A stretch of 47,533 nt of DNA. Source: Caulobacteraceae bacterium (lineage in GTDB: Bacteria; Pseudomonadota; Alphaproteobacteria; Caulobacterales; Caulobacteraceae). The DNA lies in contig JAQGIW010000002.1 of the NCBI GenBank assembly GCA_028290905.1, positions 1-47,533 of the forward strand, written 5' to 3'. A program made the translations under genes and the position numbers. Positions 8,298 to 13,552 of this stretch are shown piece after piece (positions within the stretch are counted from its first letter, which is position 1; each line of letters begins with the position of its first letter). Below the pieces are notes generated by a model. It had not been told where the DNA came from. It made no database searches and saw only the letters and a list, made by a program, of their open reading frames with translations.

Positions 8298-8847
8298 GGC
8301 CGTGCCGTCGCCCCAAAAAAGACGAGACTCGCCGTTGCATCCATGAACATGGCATACGTGAGCCGATAGCCAACCCTCAATTTGCGTTGGCGGAGATTCG
8401 AGCTTTTTCGAGGAGCCGGCGCCGCCCCTGAAATGAGCCCGTCGGGGCAGAGGCGCAAGGCCCTCCTCGGCCAAGGCTCGAGGCCCTCGGCAGACGCTCG
8501 GGGTCAAGCTGACACGGTCTACGACGGGGCGCGGCGATTGGATCACCGGGGTCCGCACCGCGGCGTGACCCGACGGCGATGGAGGAATTTCACCGCCGGG
8601 CCTCTGGTGATGACCGTGTCGTCGCCCTAGGATTCATTCATGGCCGACGCGCCGCCACCGTTGACCGAAACGCCTCGTGCGCAGATGCTCCGGACACCGC
8701 AGCGCGAAAGCATCGAGAGGCTGCGCCGCTTCGAAATGCCGCGGTCATGCGCGTTCGGCGTAGCCTGATCCGGAGGGGCGCCCAGATGGTGGACGCCGTA
8801 CACGCCTATCTTGCGCGCCGTGCGCCCGCGCAAACGGAGAGTCCGTG
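8298..8847. other. Region with no convincing gene
   Basis: Several reading frames cross these 550 bases on both strands, but all translate to arginine/proline-rich sequence without family features. One 42-codon plus-strand frame starts at 8640, and another frame ends in a TGATG overlap with the UBP zinc-finger gene. Together they could be the remains of a small frameshifted gene, but I cannot support either as coding. The promoter of the UBP-NhaA unit should lie near 8750-8840. Confidence 0.4.
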
Positions 8848-9159
8848 ATGCCAGCCGACGTCTGCAGCCACGGCGCCTGGCTACGCCACGTCACCCCCAG
8901 CGCCCGCGGCTGCGAGGAATGCCTCGCCATCGGCTCCCCCTGGGTGCACCTGCGTCTCTGCCGCGCCTGCGGCCACGTGGGGTGCTGCGACGAGTCCCCC
9001 CACCGCCACGCCACGGCTCATTTCCACGGCACAGGCCATCCGATCATCGAAGGTTACGATCCGCCCGAAGGCTGGGGATGGTGCTATGTCGACGAGGTGT
9101 TCCTCGATCTGGGCGAGGACACGACGCCCCAGGTTGGGCCGATCCCCCGTTTCGTCTGA
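8848..9159 (+). CDS. UBP-type zinc finger domain protein
   Basis: A 103-residue stand-alone ZnF-UBP domain (PF02148). The metal-ligand pattern is visible: C6 and H8 near the N-terminus, CEEC, CRACGHVGCCD, and the His-rich HRHATAHFHGTGHP. In eukaryotes this fold reads the free C-terminus of ubiquitin. The role of bacterial one-domain versions is not known. GGAGA lies eight bases upstream of the ATG at 8848; a GTG at 8845 is an equally possible start. The gene ends 27 bases before the DsbA-NhaA fusion gene, and the two are probably co-transcribed. Confidence 0.85.
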   Translation: MPADVCSHGAWLRHVTPSARGCEECLAIGSPWVHLRLCRACGHVGCCDESPHRHATAHFHGTGHPIIEGYDPPEGWGWCYVDEVFLDLGEDTTPQVGPIPRFV

Positions 9160-9186
9160 GGATCACAGCCGGAGAAGGAGACCGGA

Positions 9187-11133
9187 TTGGCCGAGCCCGG
9201 CGCCCAGCTCACGCTTCAGCGCCCGGTCGATCCCGGGCGCGACCACGTGCGGGGCGGCGGCGGTCGCGACACGGCCACCCTGTTGATCTACGGCGACTAT
9301 CTCTGTCCCTACTGTCGCCGTCTGCGCCATGTGGTCGAGAGGCTGCGGCACGCGATGGGCGATCGCTTGGCCTATGTCTTCCGACACTTTCCCAATGAGA
9401 AGGCCCACCCGGGCGCGGAATTCGCGTCGTGCGCCTCGGAAGCGGCCGCCCGGCAGGGATGCTTCTGGGAGATGCACGACGCGCTCTACGAGCGCCCACC
9501 GCCGCTGACGGAGGCGCACGTGCGCGAGGCCGCGCGCCAGATCGACCTCGACATGGACCGCTTCGAGCGCGATCTCGCGGACCAGGGCGTGCGGTCCCGC
9601 GTCGAGGAGGACCTCGCCGACGGCCGTCGCAACGGCGTCACCGGAACGCCGACCATCTTCGTCGACGGCCAGCGCTACGACGGCGCCTGGGACTTCTATT
9701 CCATGCTCGAAGCTCTGGAGCGCCCGGTGGGGACGCAGGTCCAGCGCACCGCCCGGGCTTTCGCGAGTCTGCCGGCCTCGGCGGCCCTGGTGCTGATCGC
9801 CGCGGCCGCGGCGGCTCTGGTCATAGCCAACACCCCGCTCGCGCCCCTCTATCGGCATATCGTCGACACGCCGGTCGGGATCGGCGCCAGCGCGGGGTCC
9901 CTGGCGCTGACTTTGGGCGACTGGTGCTCCGAAGGCCTGCTTACCCTCTTCTTTCTGCTCGTCGGCCTGGAGATCCGGCGCGACATGACGGCTGGCGCGC
10001 TGACCGACCGGCGCGCGGCGGTGCTGCCGGTGGTGTGCGCCATCGGCGGGACGGTGGCGCCGGCGGCGATCTACCTGGCGCTGAACCAGGGGCCGACCGC
10101 GCCGGGCTGGTCGGCGCCCACCTCCACCGGCATCGCCTTCGCCCTGGGCATCCTCGCCCTGCTGGGACGGCGCGCGCCCACCGGCCTGAAGGTGTTCGTG
10201 GCCGCCCTGGCGGTGGTCGACGACATCGTTTCGATGCTGATCCTCGCGGTCTTCTATCCGCAGGATTTCCACGCCCTCTGGCTCCTGCCCGCCGCCGGCG
10301 CCGTGGGCCTGATGGCGGCTCTCAACCGCGGGCGCGTCTACGCCGGCTGGCCCTATCTGGTGGTCACGGTGACGTTGTGGCTGTCGCTCCATGCCGCCGG
10401 GGTGAACGCGGCCCTGGCCGGCGTGGTGCTCGCCATCTTCCTGCCGACCCGGCCGGCACCCGCCGCCGGACCGTTGCTCGCCCAGGCGGCCACGGCCCTG
10501 GCCGCTCTCGAGCACGCCCAGAACGAGGCCAGGCTCGAGGCGAGCGGCAAGACGCGCGCCTCCCCGGGCCAGACGGCGTCGGTGGAGCAGGAACCGATCT
10601 GGGATTGGGCCAGCCGCAACCTCTCGGCCGCCAGCGCCCGCCTGCTCTCTCCTGCCGATCGCGTGGAGCGCGCCGTCGCGCCGTGGGCGGCCTATGTGAT
10701 CCTGCCGCTGTTCGCCTTTTCCGCCACCGGCATCCCCCTCGGGGTCGATCTGAACTCGCCGGGCGTGTTGCGGGTGATCCTCGGCGTGGTCCTCGGGCTG
10801 GTGGCGGGAAAGCCGCTGGGTATCTGCCTCGCGGCCTTGGCGGCGGTGAAGGCCAGGATCGCGGTCATGCCCGAAGACACCACCCCGCGGGCCTTCTTCG
10901 GCGCCGCCATGCTGTGCGGCGTCAGTGATCCGGTCGGGCTGCTCATGGCCGACAGCGCCTTCCCACACGGCGACTTCGCCGCGGCGGCCAAGATCGGCGT
11001 CCTCGCCGGCTCAGGGATCGCGGCCGCCCTCGGCGTCCTCGTTCTCGCCACCAGCCCTCCGCCGGTCACCCCCGCGCCGGCGGAGTCGAACAGCGTGAGG
11101 GAAGCGCGACGCGCGGAGCTGGCCCGCGCCTAG
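9187..11133 (+). CDS. nhaA: DsbA-like thioredoxin fused to NhaA-type Na+/H+ antiporter
   Basis: A 648-residue fusion. Residues about 30-175 are a DsbA/thioredoxin_4 domain with redox motif CPYC (GDYLCPYCRRL) and the cis-Pro loop GTPTIFVDG; no signal peptide precedes it, so it should face the cytoplasm. Residues about 195-630 are NhaA (PF06965) with LFFLLVGLEIRRD, the transport aspartates in ALAVVDDI and the TM10 lysine in AGKPLGI. By eye alignment to E. coli NhaA, Asp133 (ATDIAFALG) is Gly here (STGIAFALG). Gly338-Phe339 of TM11 (CGIGFTM) reads Ser-Asp (CGVSDPV). A long Ala-rich insert (ALEHAQNEARLEAS) lies mid-protein. The start is TTG with AAGGAG six bases upstream. Fused NhaA-thioredoxin proteins are known; coupling and cation specificity here are unknown. 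Confidence 0.9.
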   Translation: MAEPGAQLTLQRPVDPGRDHVRGGGGRDTATLLIYGDYLCPYCRRLRHVVERLRHAMGDRLAYVFRHFPNEKAHPGAEFASCASEAAARQGCFWEMHDALYERPPPLTEAHVREAARQIDLDMDRFERDLADQGVRSRVEEDLADGRRNGVTGTPTIFVDGQRYDGAWDFYSMLEALERPVGTQVQRTARAFASLPASAALVLIAAAAAALVIANTPLAPLYRHIVDTPVGIGASAGSLALTLGDWCSEGLLTLFFLLVGLEIRRDMTAGALTDRRAAVLPVVCAIGGTVAPAAIYLALNQGPTAPGWSAPTSTGIAFALGILALLGRRAPTGLKVFVAALAVVDDIVSMLILAVFYPQDFHALWLLPAAGAVGLMAALNRGRVYAGWPYLVVTVTLWLSLHAAGVNAALAGVVLAIFLPTRPAPAAGPLLAQAATALAALEHAQNEARLEASGKTRASPGQTASVEQEPIWDWASRNLSAASARLLSPADRVERAVAPWAAYVILPLFAFSATGIPLGVDLNSPGVLRVILGVVLGLVAGKPLGICLAALAAVKARIAVMPEDTTPRAFFGAAMLCGVSDPVGLLMADSAFPHGDFAAAAKIGVLAGSGIAAALGVLVLATSPPPVTPAPAESNSVREARRAELARA

Positions 11134-12826: not shown

Positions 12827-13552
12827 CTAGGCCCTTTGGGTGGTCTTGCGCCCCGCGCGCGCGGGCTCAGTTGCGCGGCGGCGCAGGCTGACGCCCAGGA
12901 GGCCGAAGCCGGCGATCAGCATCGCCCAGGTTGTCGGCTCGGGCACGCCGGTGGCGAAACCCTGGGTGTAGCCGAAGCCCTGGCCGTTCGGGCCCTCCGG
13001 ATAGATCGCCTGCGCGTAGCTCTGTGCGGCGTGCGCCTGGGCGTAGGCGATAAAGCTGGCGATGTCGTTGTTCTCCTGGGGCGTGCCGATCACCTGGGAG
13101 GGCGCGAAGCCGTATTCCACCTCCCAGATCGCGCCCTGAATGGCGGTCAGCTTCTCGGCGCTCGGATTGGCGCTGTTGGCGAGGCCCGTGCCGATCTCGG
13201 CCAGGGTCTGGATCTCGCCGGACACCATCTGCGACAGCGAATTCCCAGTGCCCGACTTGGTCCCTGTGGAATCCGTTGTCACGACGCCCGTCTTGTACAC
13301 CAACGGGGGACTGTAGTTGGCGATGTAGACATTGTGGTTGAGGTCGACGCACCACACCCAGAGGGGTTTGGCGTCGCCCTGCACCGTGAGGGCGATCGCC
13401 GAGGCGATCACATTCGCCCCGTTCACATTGAGAGTGTTGTAGCTTTGAACGCCGACGCCGGTGATATTCAGGATCGCGGCGGACGCCGCCGAACTTGCCG
13501 CCAAAAGCGGCAGGATTGCCGCGATGGCGAGGCTATGCTTTACGTTAGACAT
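12827..13552 (-). CDS. PEPxxWA-CTERM sorting domain protein
   Basis: A 241-residue secreted protein. A signal peptide (LAIAAILPLLAASSAASAA) is followed by a roughly 170-residue beta-rich domain and the sorting signal VPEPTTWAMLIAGFGLLGVSLRRR, then a polar tail. The signal is the PEPxxWA variant common in Sphingomonadales and Caulobacterales, normally recognised by an exosortase, which cleaves near PEP and releases or anchors the protein at the surface; no exosortase is in the window. The central domain has WVWCVDLNHNVYI and QGAIWEVEYGF segments, reminiscent of thioester/GlyGly-type PEP-CTERM proteins, without a firm family. An AT-rich stretch (13610-13680) upstream holds the palindrome AACAATTGTT and two GAATTGAT copies, probably its promoter region. 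Confidence 0.88.
   Translation of the reverse strand: MSNVKHSLAIAAILPLLAASSAASAAILNITGVGVQSYNTLNVNGANVIASAIALTVQGDAKPLWVWCVDLNHNVYIANYSPPLVYKTGVVTTDSTGTKSGTGNSLSQMVSGEIQTLAEIGTGLANSANPSAEKLTAIQGAIWEVEYGFAPSQVIGTPQENNDIASFIAYAQAHAAQSYAQAIYPEGPNGQGFGYTQGFATGVPEPTTWAMLIAGFGLLGVSLRRRATEPARAGRKTTQRA

Follow-up and report, generated by a model that had tools for sequence, protein, structure and literature searches.

A DsbA-NhaA fusion from a Caulobacteraceae bacterium and the probable order of aspartate gain and loss at its TM4/TM11 crossing

The window analysed here is a stretch of 47,533 nucleotides from a Caulobacteraceae bacterium (assembly GCA_028290905.1, contig JAQGIW010000002.1), and the gene of interest in it encodes a protein in which a DsbA-fold domain is joined to an NhaA-type sodium/proton antiporter. 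In Escherichia coli NhaA, Asp133 is suggested to balance the crossing of transmembrane helices 4 and 11 (TM4 and TM11), a hallmark of the NhaA fold that is shared with eukaryotic exchangers (PMC13408996, PMC10928194). A preliminary description of the locus, made by eye, saw one aspartate lost from TM4 and another gained in TM11, and took the pair for a charge swap in a redox-linked antiporter. The question is whether these two changes are a single exchange tied to the fusion or separate events. Judging from aligned sequences and trees, the swap is better described as a gain first and a loss later, in a clade whose crossover had already been rebuilt.

The alignment with E. coli K-12 NhaA (locus L076), the reference used throughout, runs without gaps through TM4 and TM11. 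In TM4, the E. coli segment GWAIPAATDIAF stands opposite GWSAPTSTGIAF of the window, which bears out the replacement of Asp133 by Gly (G315) in the unwound segment S313-T314-G315-I316 (10123..10134; all features of the fusion lie on the + strand), equivalent to A131-T132-D133-I134. In TM11 the pair is LCGIGFTMSIF and LCGVSDPVGLL, and the change described from Gly338-Phe339-Thr340 to Ser580-Asp581-Pro582 (10924..10932) is likewise confirmed. Two further changes had not been listed: His225 is Asn (N407, 10405..10407) and Ser347 is Asp (D589, 10951..10953), the latter being the second clade-typical aspartate of TM11. The ion-binding Asp163 and Asp164 are retained as D345-D346 (10219..10224), and Lys300 as K542 (10810..10812). 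The idea of an assembly or sequencing error was dropped: identical STG and SDP triplets occur in two other assemblies, the Phenylobacterium metagenome-assembled genome records L004 and L010, which makes such an error unlikely. The TM4 motif A1T2D3I4 of NhaA (PMC6181914) reads S-T-G-I in the window, so the protein is a divergent NhaA and not a typical one; Phe339, a family mark that comes from the present survey and is unpublished, is Asp581.

The survey is based on an alignment of 208 NhaA frames plus E. coli NhaA; the E. coli locus is also among the 208, so this protein is counted twice. The main counts use the 202 rows with at least 280 aligned residues, seven shorter ones (L003, L012, both pieces of L013, L015 and both pieces of L216) being dropped; one further pair among the 202 is 99.7% identical. 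Unfused rows were often the best-scoring loci of each search, and 80 places hand-picked across families were included as an offset, one of them repeating an earlier row. We call D339-type the clade of DsbA-NhaA fusions with Asp at position 339, represented by 17 rows. The remaining 185 rows comprise 173 unfused proteins, seven with an N-terminal DsbA domain and five with a C-terminal one. Asp133 is present in all 185 of them and Phe339 in 184, the exception being the divergent paralogue L192, which has Leu; the loss of Phe339 in the window is thus far from chance. Asp339 was found in each of the 16 clade rows readable at this position and in no row outside the clade.

A motif-only check of the 26 loci L218-L243 gave ATDI and GFT in 24 unfused rows, several at places already in the set; a partial row (L230) reads PTDA, with TM11 unreadable, and two repeat L004 and L010. 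An alignment-free check by regular expressions was noisy: of the 208 rows it missed 17 at TM4 and 11 at TM11, and it gave four odd hits, three for TM11 and one for TM4, the latter a chance resemblance within TM1 of L084. The alignment counts were used instead. Some individual rows deserve separate mention. L189 (G034, the window's genus) is an unfused NhaA with Asp at 340 (GFD) that keeps Asp133, another natural acid in the TM11 crossover. L190, L191, L192 and L196, divergent unfused paralogues from other genomes of the window's family, have GA, DN, GQ and AD at the 163-164 pair and keep Asp133 and Lys300. The short row L003 (window genome, contig C294, 685-882) is a lone D339-type NhaA tail (GVSDSL); the rest of the gene does not lie beside it, and it is probably the relic of another copy.

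Within the clade, position 133 is Asp in ten rows, Gly in six and Asn in one. The ten Asp133 rows read GDT at 338-340, and Gly133 together with SDP is found in three (window, L004, L010); the others are L079 (Gly, GDP), L011 (Gly, TM11 cut off), L008 (Gly, GDT) and L049 (Asn, GDP). The last of these (G386, contig C22) is a D339-type NhaA without the DsbA domain and TM1-3, has D164G besides D133N, and is probably decaying. Of the six rows that lack Asp133 and can be read at 340, five have Pro in place of Thr340, as against none of the ten that bear Asp133. It is thus Thr340 that varies with 133, and not Phe339, the partner first proposed, which appears to have changed earlier. G338S is confined, in this clade, to the three-member window subgroup, and L079 and L011 have an Asp at position 131, two residues ahead of the lost one. 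Clade-typical residues that are scarce elsewhere include N64S, A127S (14/16), A167S, F339D, F344L and S347D; in E. coli, A167P lowered the affinity for Na+ and slowed turnover (PMC3750164). Phe7, Glu78, Glu82 (Asp in one row) and Glu252 are kept in the 16 clade rows examined, and Arg6 occurs in none.

Trees were built with IQ-TREE from 37 rows, with the trait columns removed, and with FastTree from a larger set of aligned NhaA rows. IQ-TREE supports the D339 clade at 100/100 and the grouping of all N-terminal fusions at 100/98, and only weakly (85/62) the seven canonical N-terminal fusions as a single sister group. In FastTree, 24 rows form one clade (0.994, no other row inside), made up of the 17 D339 rows, L049 without its DsbA part included, and the seven canonical N-terminal fusions; the five C-terminal fusions form a separate clade (0.99). 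No fewer than three changes are needed at position 133: one in the lineage of window, L004, L010, L011 and L079 (a single fork, 94/89), one in L008 and one in L049. Of the whole FastTree length, 5.3% belongs to the D339 clade, and the chance that two losses both fall there is about 0.003, and that three do about 0.0002, crude values that assume equal rates and leave near relatives unweighed. Parsimony on the tree, together with the ten of 17 clade rows that still have Asp133, indicates a gain before the loss, and the most likely order is N-terminal fusion, then Asp339, then loss of Asp133.

As regards the charge swap, the gain and the loss are real, they lie at the TM4/TM11 crossing, and the loss is found solely in the Asp339 clade; the part that does not stand is a one-step exchange tied to the fusion. 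The two changes were found to be independent in part: since those ten rows carry both aspartates, gain and loss are separable. The substitutions cannot be taken as a property of fusions either, because 12 other DsbA-NhaA fusions, seven N-terminal and five C-terminal, have neither of them, and the fusion alone does not explain the crossover. With GFT in the same 12 proteins, a rule by which fusion to DsbA brings the Asp gain was discarded.

The explanation that we favour, with a probability of about 0.5 for the whole, is that Asp339 came first, that Asp133 then became dispensable, and that a cytosolic DsbA domain gates the funnel of the antiporter. By parsimony on the alignment and the tree, Phe339 would have been replaced by Asp while Asp133 was still present; Asp339 may then have had a permissive role, making Asp133 dispensable, and Asp133 would have been lost later in some lineages. 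In the window lineage this loss was probably accompanied by T340P and by the change of His225 to Asn or Ser, and finally by that of Gly338 to Ser, an order also suggested by parsimony. From the conservation of Asp163, Asp164 and Lys300, cation/proton exchange would be expected to follow the NhaA route as before; in a published scheme, Asp at 163 with Lys at 300 is the sign of electrogenic antiporters, and the choice of cation is read from TM4 positions 131-134 (PMC6181914).

Regarding the pH response, a shift to lower pH is a reasonable prediction by analogy, since the fitted pKa of E. coli NhaA falls from 8.8 to 7.0 with G338S and to 7.1 with H225R (PMC3750164, Table 2); position 225 of the window is Asn, unlike the Arg assayed there. 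This prediction draws on positions 338 and 225 and not on 133: E. coli D133C has a wild-type-like pH profile and a higher Km (PMC10928194), so the loss of Asp133 alone does not predict altered pH control. In E. coli, Asp133 and Thr340 are 4 A apart and can be cross-linked as cysteines (PMC10928194). Cation choice might be looser towards K+, given the Ser at TM4 position 1; in NhaP-II CPA1 proteins a Ser at this position marks K+ use, and in Kef CPA2 proteins position 4 is Thr (PMC6181914).

As for the redox part, the gene (9187..11133) is an open reading frame of 648 amino acids with a TTG start, preceded at 6 nt by the likely ribosome-binding site AAGGAG (9175..9180, + strand), read from the DNA. 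Residues 31-178 (9277..9720) form the DsbA-fold thioredoxin domain, identified by Pfam DSBA and Thioredoxin_4, and residues 191-620 (9757..11046) the NhaA antiporter domain. The Pfam matches are DSBA (PF01323) at residues 32-177, with 65.5 bits (cut-off 25.6), and Na_H_antiport_1 (PF06965) at residues 192-620, with 362.4 bits (cut-off 23.5), and the protein reaches 302.1 bits for the NCBIfam NhaA equivalog TIGR00773 (cut-off 254). At E <= 0.001, Pfam found only Na_H_antiport_1, DSBA, Thioredoxin_4 and Thioredoxin_2 in it, and no Kef-type regulatory domain. The solved structures matched by sequence are DsbA-like proteins for the first part and NhaA for the second. The active-site CPYC (C40-C43, 9304..9315), which we take to be a glutaredoxin-type motif, is intact as had been noted, and the cis-Pro motif T154-P155 (9646..9651) is also present. 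CxxC and cis-Pro are found in all 17 readable DsbA domains of the D339 clade, 14 with CPYC and three with CPFC. Among the canonical N-terminal fusions, L081, L083 and L091 constitute a subclade in which the DsbA-like domain is kept and the CxxC is gone.

By hydropathy, no strongly hydrophobic segment precedes TM1 of NhaA in the window protein (top 19-residue value, 0.37), nor was one found in 17 other fusions, whose true protein starts are unfixed, over the stretch running from the beginning of the DsbA match to NhaA. The N-terminal tail of E. coli NhaA is on the cytoplasmic side, and its N-terminal segment plugs the cytoplasmic funnel at low pH (PMC13408996). With no hydrophobic export segment seen and the E. 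coli tail in the cytoplasm, the DsbA-fold domain is probably cytosolic. The fusion junction falls at the E. coli plug segment, with the DsbA part joined directly, and the domain may sit at the mouth of the funnel, its thiol state coupled to funnel opening; redox gating of the funnel plug would be the most natural mechanism.

Several observations weigh against this reading. L008 lost Asp133 without T340P, so T340P is not obligatory for the loss, and in L011, which also lacks Asp133, residue 339 is unreadable since TM11 is cut off. One of the three losses is that of L049, probably a decaying gene, and without it two are left. For the NhaA part, the ratio of nonsynonymous to synonymous substitution rates (dN/dS, Nei-Gojobori, to be read with caution at high GC) is 0.32-0.37 among window, L004 and L010, and lower, 0.13-0.24, in five other pairs of the clade, including the D133-less pair L011/L079. 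At TM4 position 4 the window has Ile and not the Kef-type Thr. The CxxC is kept in four of the seven other N-terminal fusions and lost in three (L081, L083, L091), so redox chemistry is not essential in every fusion. E. coli NhaA without residues 2-13 showed antiport similar to the wild type at pH 6.5-9.0 (PMC13408996), and this small effect of deleting the plug weakens the model of plug-based gating. Finally, AlphaFold2 on a seven-row fusion alignment (A1) gave a mean pLDDT of 55.7, with both crossover segments partly below 50, and thus no structural support.

With these points in mind, the rival explanations can be compared. A true charge swap, in which the loss of Asp133 and the gain of the TM11 aspartate were one fusion-specific compensating exchange, is very unlikely. 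The window protein does have both changes, and no Asp133 loss was seen beyond the Asp339 clade; however, the rows with both aspartates contradict it, parsimony puts the gain on the stem, ahead of the losses, and the other fusions of either orientation have neither change, so that what survives is probably the weaker, permissive form. It is also unlikely, although less so, that the protein is simply the drifting second NhaA of the cell, with the loss of Asp133, T340P, H225N and G338S being tolerated decay and no compensation between 133 and 339. The window genome has, on another contig, a canonical-length NhaA with Asp133 and GFT (L001), the subfamily can decay, as seen in the tail remnant of a second D339-type copy in the window genome (L003) and in the truncated copy elsewhere (L049), and dN/dS is somewhat raised in the window subgroup. 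But this ratio is well below 1, the same STG and SDP are present in three assemblies, Asp163, Asp164 and Lys300 are found in all five rows of the window lineage (window, L004, L010, L011, L079), and CxxC with cis-Pro in the four that are readable. In addition, Asp133 is retained in all 173 unfused rows, even in the four with an altered 163-164 pair (L190, L191, L192 and L196). The window protein is under purifying selection, with perhaps somewhat relaxed constraint as judged from codon comparisons.

A different doubt concerns the redox domain, which could be a passenger, that is, a membrane-tethered cytosolic thiol oxidoreductase whose chemistry is unrelated to ion transport. DsbA domains have joined NhaA at both ends, giving separate groups of N-terminal and C-terminal fusions, and the three N-terminal fusions that lost the CxxC still keep Asp133, the Asp pair, Lys300 and GFT. 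We nevertheless consider this explanation improbable: in the aligned D339-type members the DsbA part runs straight into TM1, the CxxC is kept in every readable domain of the clade (17/17), and the transport core of the clade is remodelled (N64S, A127S in 14/16, A167S, F339D, S347D). The sequential gain and loss with a gating DsbA domain is for us the preferred reading.

The gene neighbourhood adds a possible partner. A gene for a zf-UBP zinc-finger protein (8845..9159, + strand; Pfam PF02148, 43.6 bits) lies 27 bp upstream of the fusion, and this domain, a ubiquitin-hydrolase-type zinc finger, has no other match in the window genome at E <= 0.001. It was seen beside the fusion at two loci alone, that of the window and that of G105, a genome from the same genus, where a copy 78% identical follows the fusion tail (L015:637-945). 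Anywhere in the genome, zf-UBP was present in 11 of 15 fusion genomes and in 5 of 25 chosen relatives without the fusion (Fisher 0.002, kinship uncorrected; fragmented assemblies can hide neighbours), and the gene is a possible operon partner. A conserved neighbourhood was considered and rejected: among the 15 clade loci compared, the widest sharing covered five. L047, L101, L102 and L104, from one genus, share flanking frames; six of these frames had no match in Pfam, and they may be shadow frames or reflect plain relatedness. Farther downstream, beyond an acyl-CoA dehydrogenase gene, Pfam identified a PEP-CTERM protein gene (12827-13552, - strand).

Concerning distribution, the D339 clade is rare and patchy in the genomes searched. 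A scan of species genomes with the window protein, which picks up a locus only if it has one of six exact peptide stretches, returned 12 loci: two in Phenylobacterium, three in Caulobacteraceae (two from one isolate), four in Alphaproteobacteria, and one each in Betaproteobacteria, Myxococcales and Actinomycetota, the last of which (L014) is a distant, canonical NhaA. The searches of the family (390 genomes), the class (385) and the phylum (398) scored up to three candidates per genome, so the numbers of fusion genomes are lower bounds. In the window's family a D339-clade fusion was found in at least six genomes, two of them with the gene split over contigs and one (G008) with TM11 cut off; the L004 and L011 proteins turn up again among the genomes of this family. 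Of 96 genomes in a second family of the window's class, 11 matched at E <= 1e-100, namely nine full D339-type proteins, the truncated L049 and the canonical N-terminal fusion L106. The class sample contained, besides the window's genome, D339-type proteins in at least three genomes of that second family, one of them truncated. In the phylum sample, at E <= 1e-90, no D339-type protein was found besides that of the window's genome, and there were at least three canonical N-terminal fusions. Plasmid records add fusions of both orientations which, where annotated, are simply called NhaA. Two plasmid C-terminal fusions, L093 and L094, adjoin the excinuclease gene uvrA, after the fusion in Stutzerimonas and before it in Rhodococcus, perhaps within a shared mobile segment. 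A full-text search of the open-access literature, judged by titles and abstract openings and with most subscription papers outside its scope, found no description of a DsbA-NhaA fusion.

The D339 clade provides natural proteins with both aspartates and with the TM11 one alone, which lets the need for an acid at the crossing, and its place, be tested; it is a natural experiment on the change that the NhaA pump fold tolerates. The fusion likewise offers a definite site at which redox control of a model antiporter can be sought. By its family matches the window protein is a divergent NhaA, a variant within a known family, and what is said of its activity, pH response, cation choice and redox control is prediction. 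With E. coli NhaA (CPA2, PF06965, TIGR00773) it shares the antiporter domain, across residues 191-620, Asp163, Asp164 and Lys300, Glu78 and Glu252. It differs in the N-terminal DsbA domain, in A131S, D133G, H225N, G338S, F339D, T340P and S347D, and in about 60 additional residues past E. coli residue 240, an insertion which we place presumably between TM8 and TM9.

The other N-terminal fusions, such as those of Sinorhizobium mexicanum (WP_246452646.1) and Paroceanicella profunda (WP_138576889.1), annotated as Na+/H+ antiporter NhaA, have the same domain order and fall in one clade with the D339 type (100/98), but all seven read TD at 132-133 and GFT at 338-340, and three have lost the CxxC. 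The C-terminal NhaA-DsbA fusions of Actinomycetota and Pseudomonadota (L090, L092-L094, L096) combine the same two domains, whereas their order is the opposite, their tree group is separate, and their crossover is canonical, position 4 of the TM4 motif being Thr. This Thr, the K+-type mark of the published scheme, occurs in nine of the 12 DsbA-fused NhaAs outside the D339 clade (L082, L089, L090, L092-L096 and L106, in two groups of the trees) and in 4 of 199 unfused rows, some of them repeating.

KefB and KefC are glutathione-gated K+/H+ antiporters. The likeness to them is the idea of a cytosolic thiol-sensing part that controls a CPA2 antiporter; the difference is that the window protein has no Kef-type regulatory domain (Pfam, E <= 0.001). 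A Kef-like machine assembled from NhaA and DsbA parts can be imagined, that is, a thiol-gated cation/proton antiporter in which the cytosolic CPYC domain would replace or control the plug and the rebuilt crossover, with its aspartate in TM11 instead of TM4 and a Ser at the first TM4 motif position, would work near neutral pH and accept K+, but in this complete form we hold it to be quite improbable. For the crossover itself, a parallel is NapA of Thermus thermophilus, of the CPA2 NapA-I clade, which also has an acid in the unwound segment of TM11, Glu333, at the position of E. coli Thr340 (PMC6181914). NapA belongs to a different clade of the superfamily, its acid is at 340 and that of the window at 339, and at 338 it has Arg331 where the window has Ser; still, its Glu333 indicates that a pump can work with an acid in its TM11 crossover.

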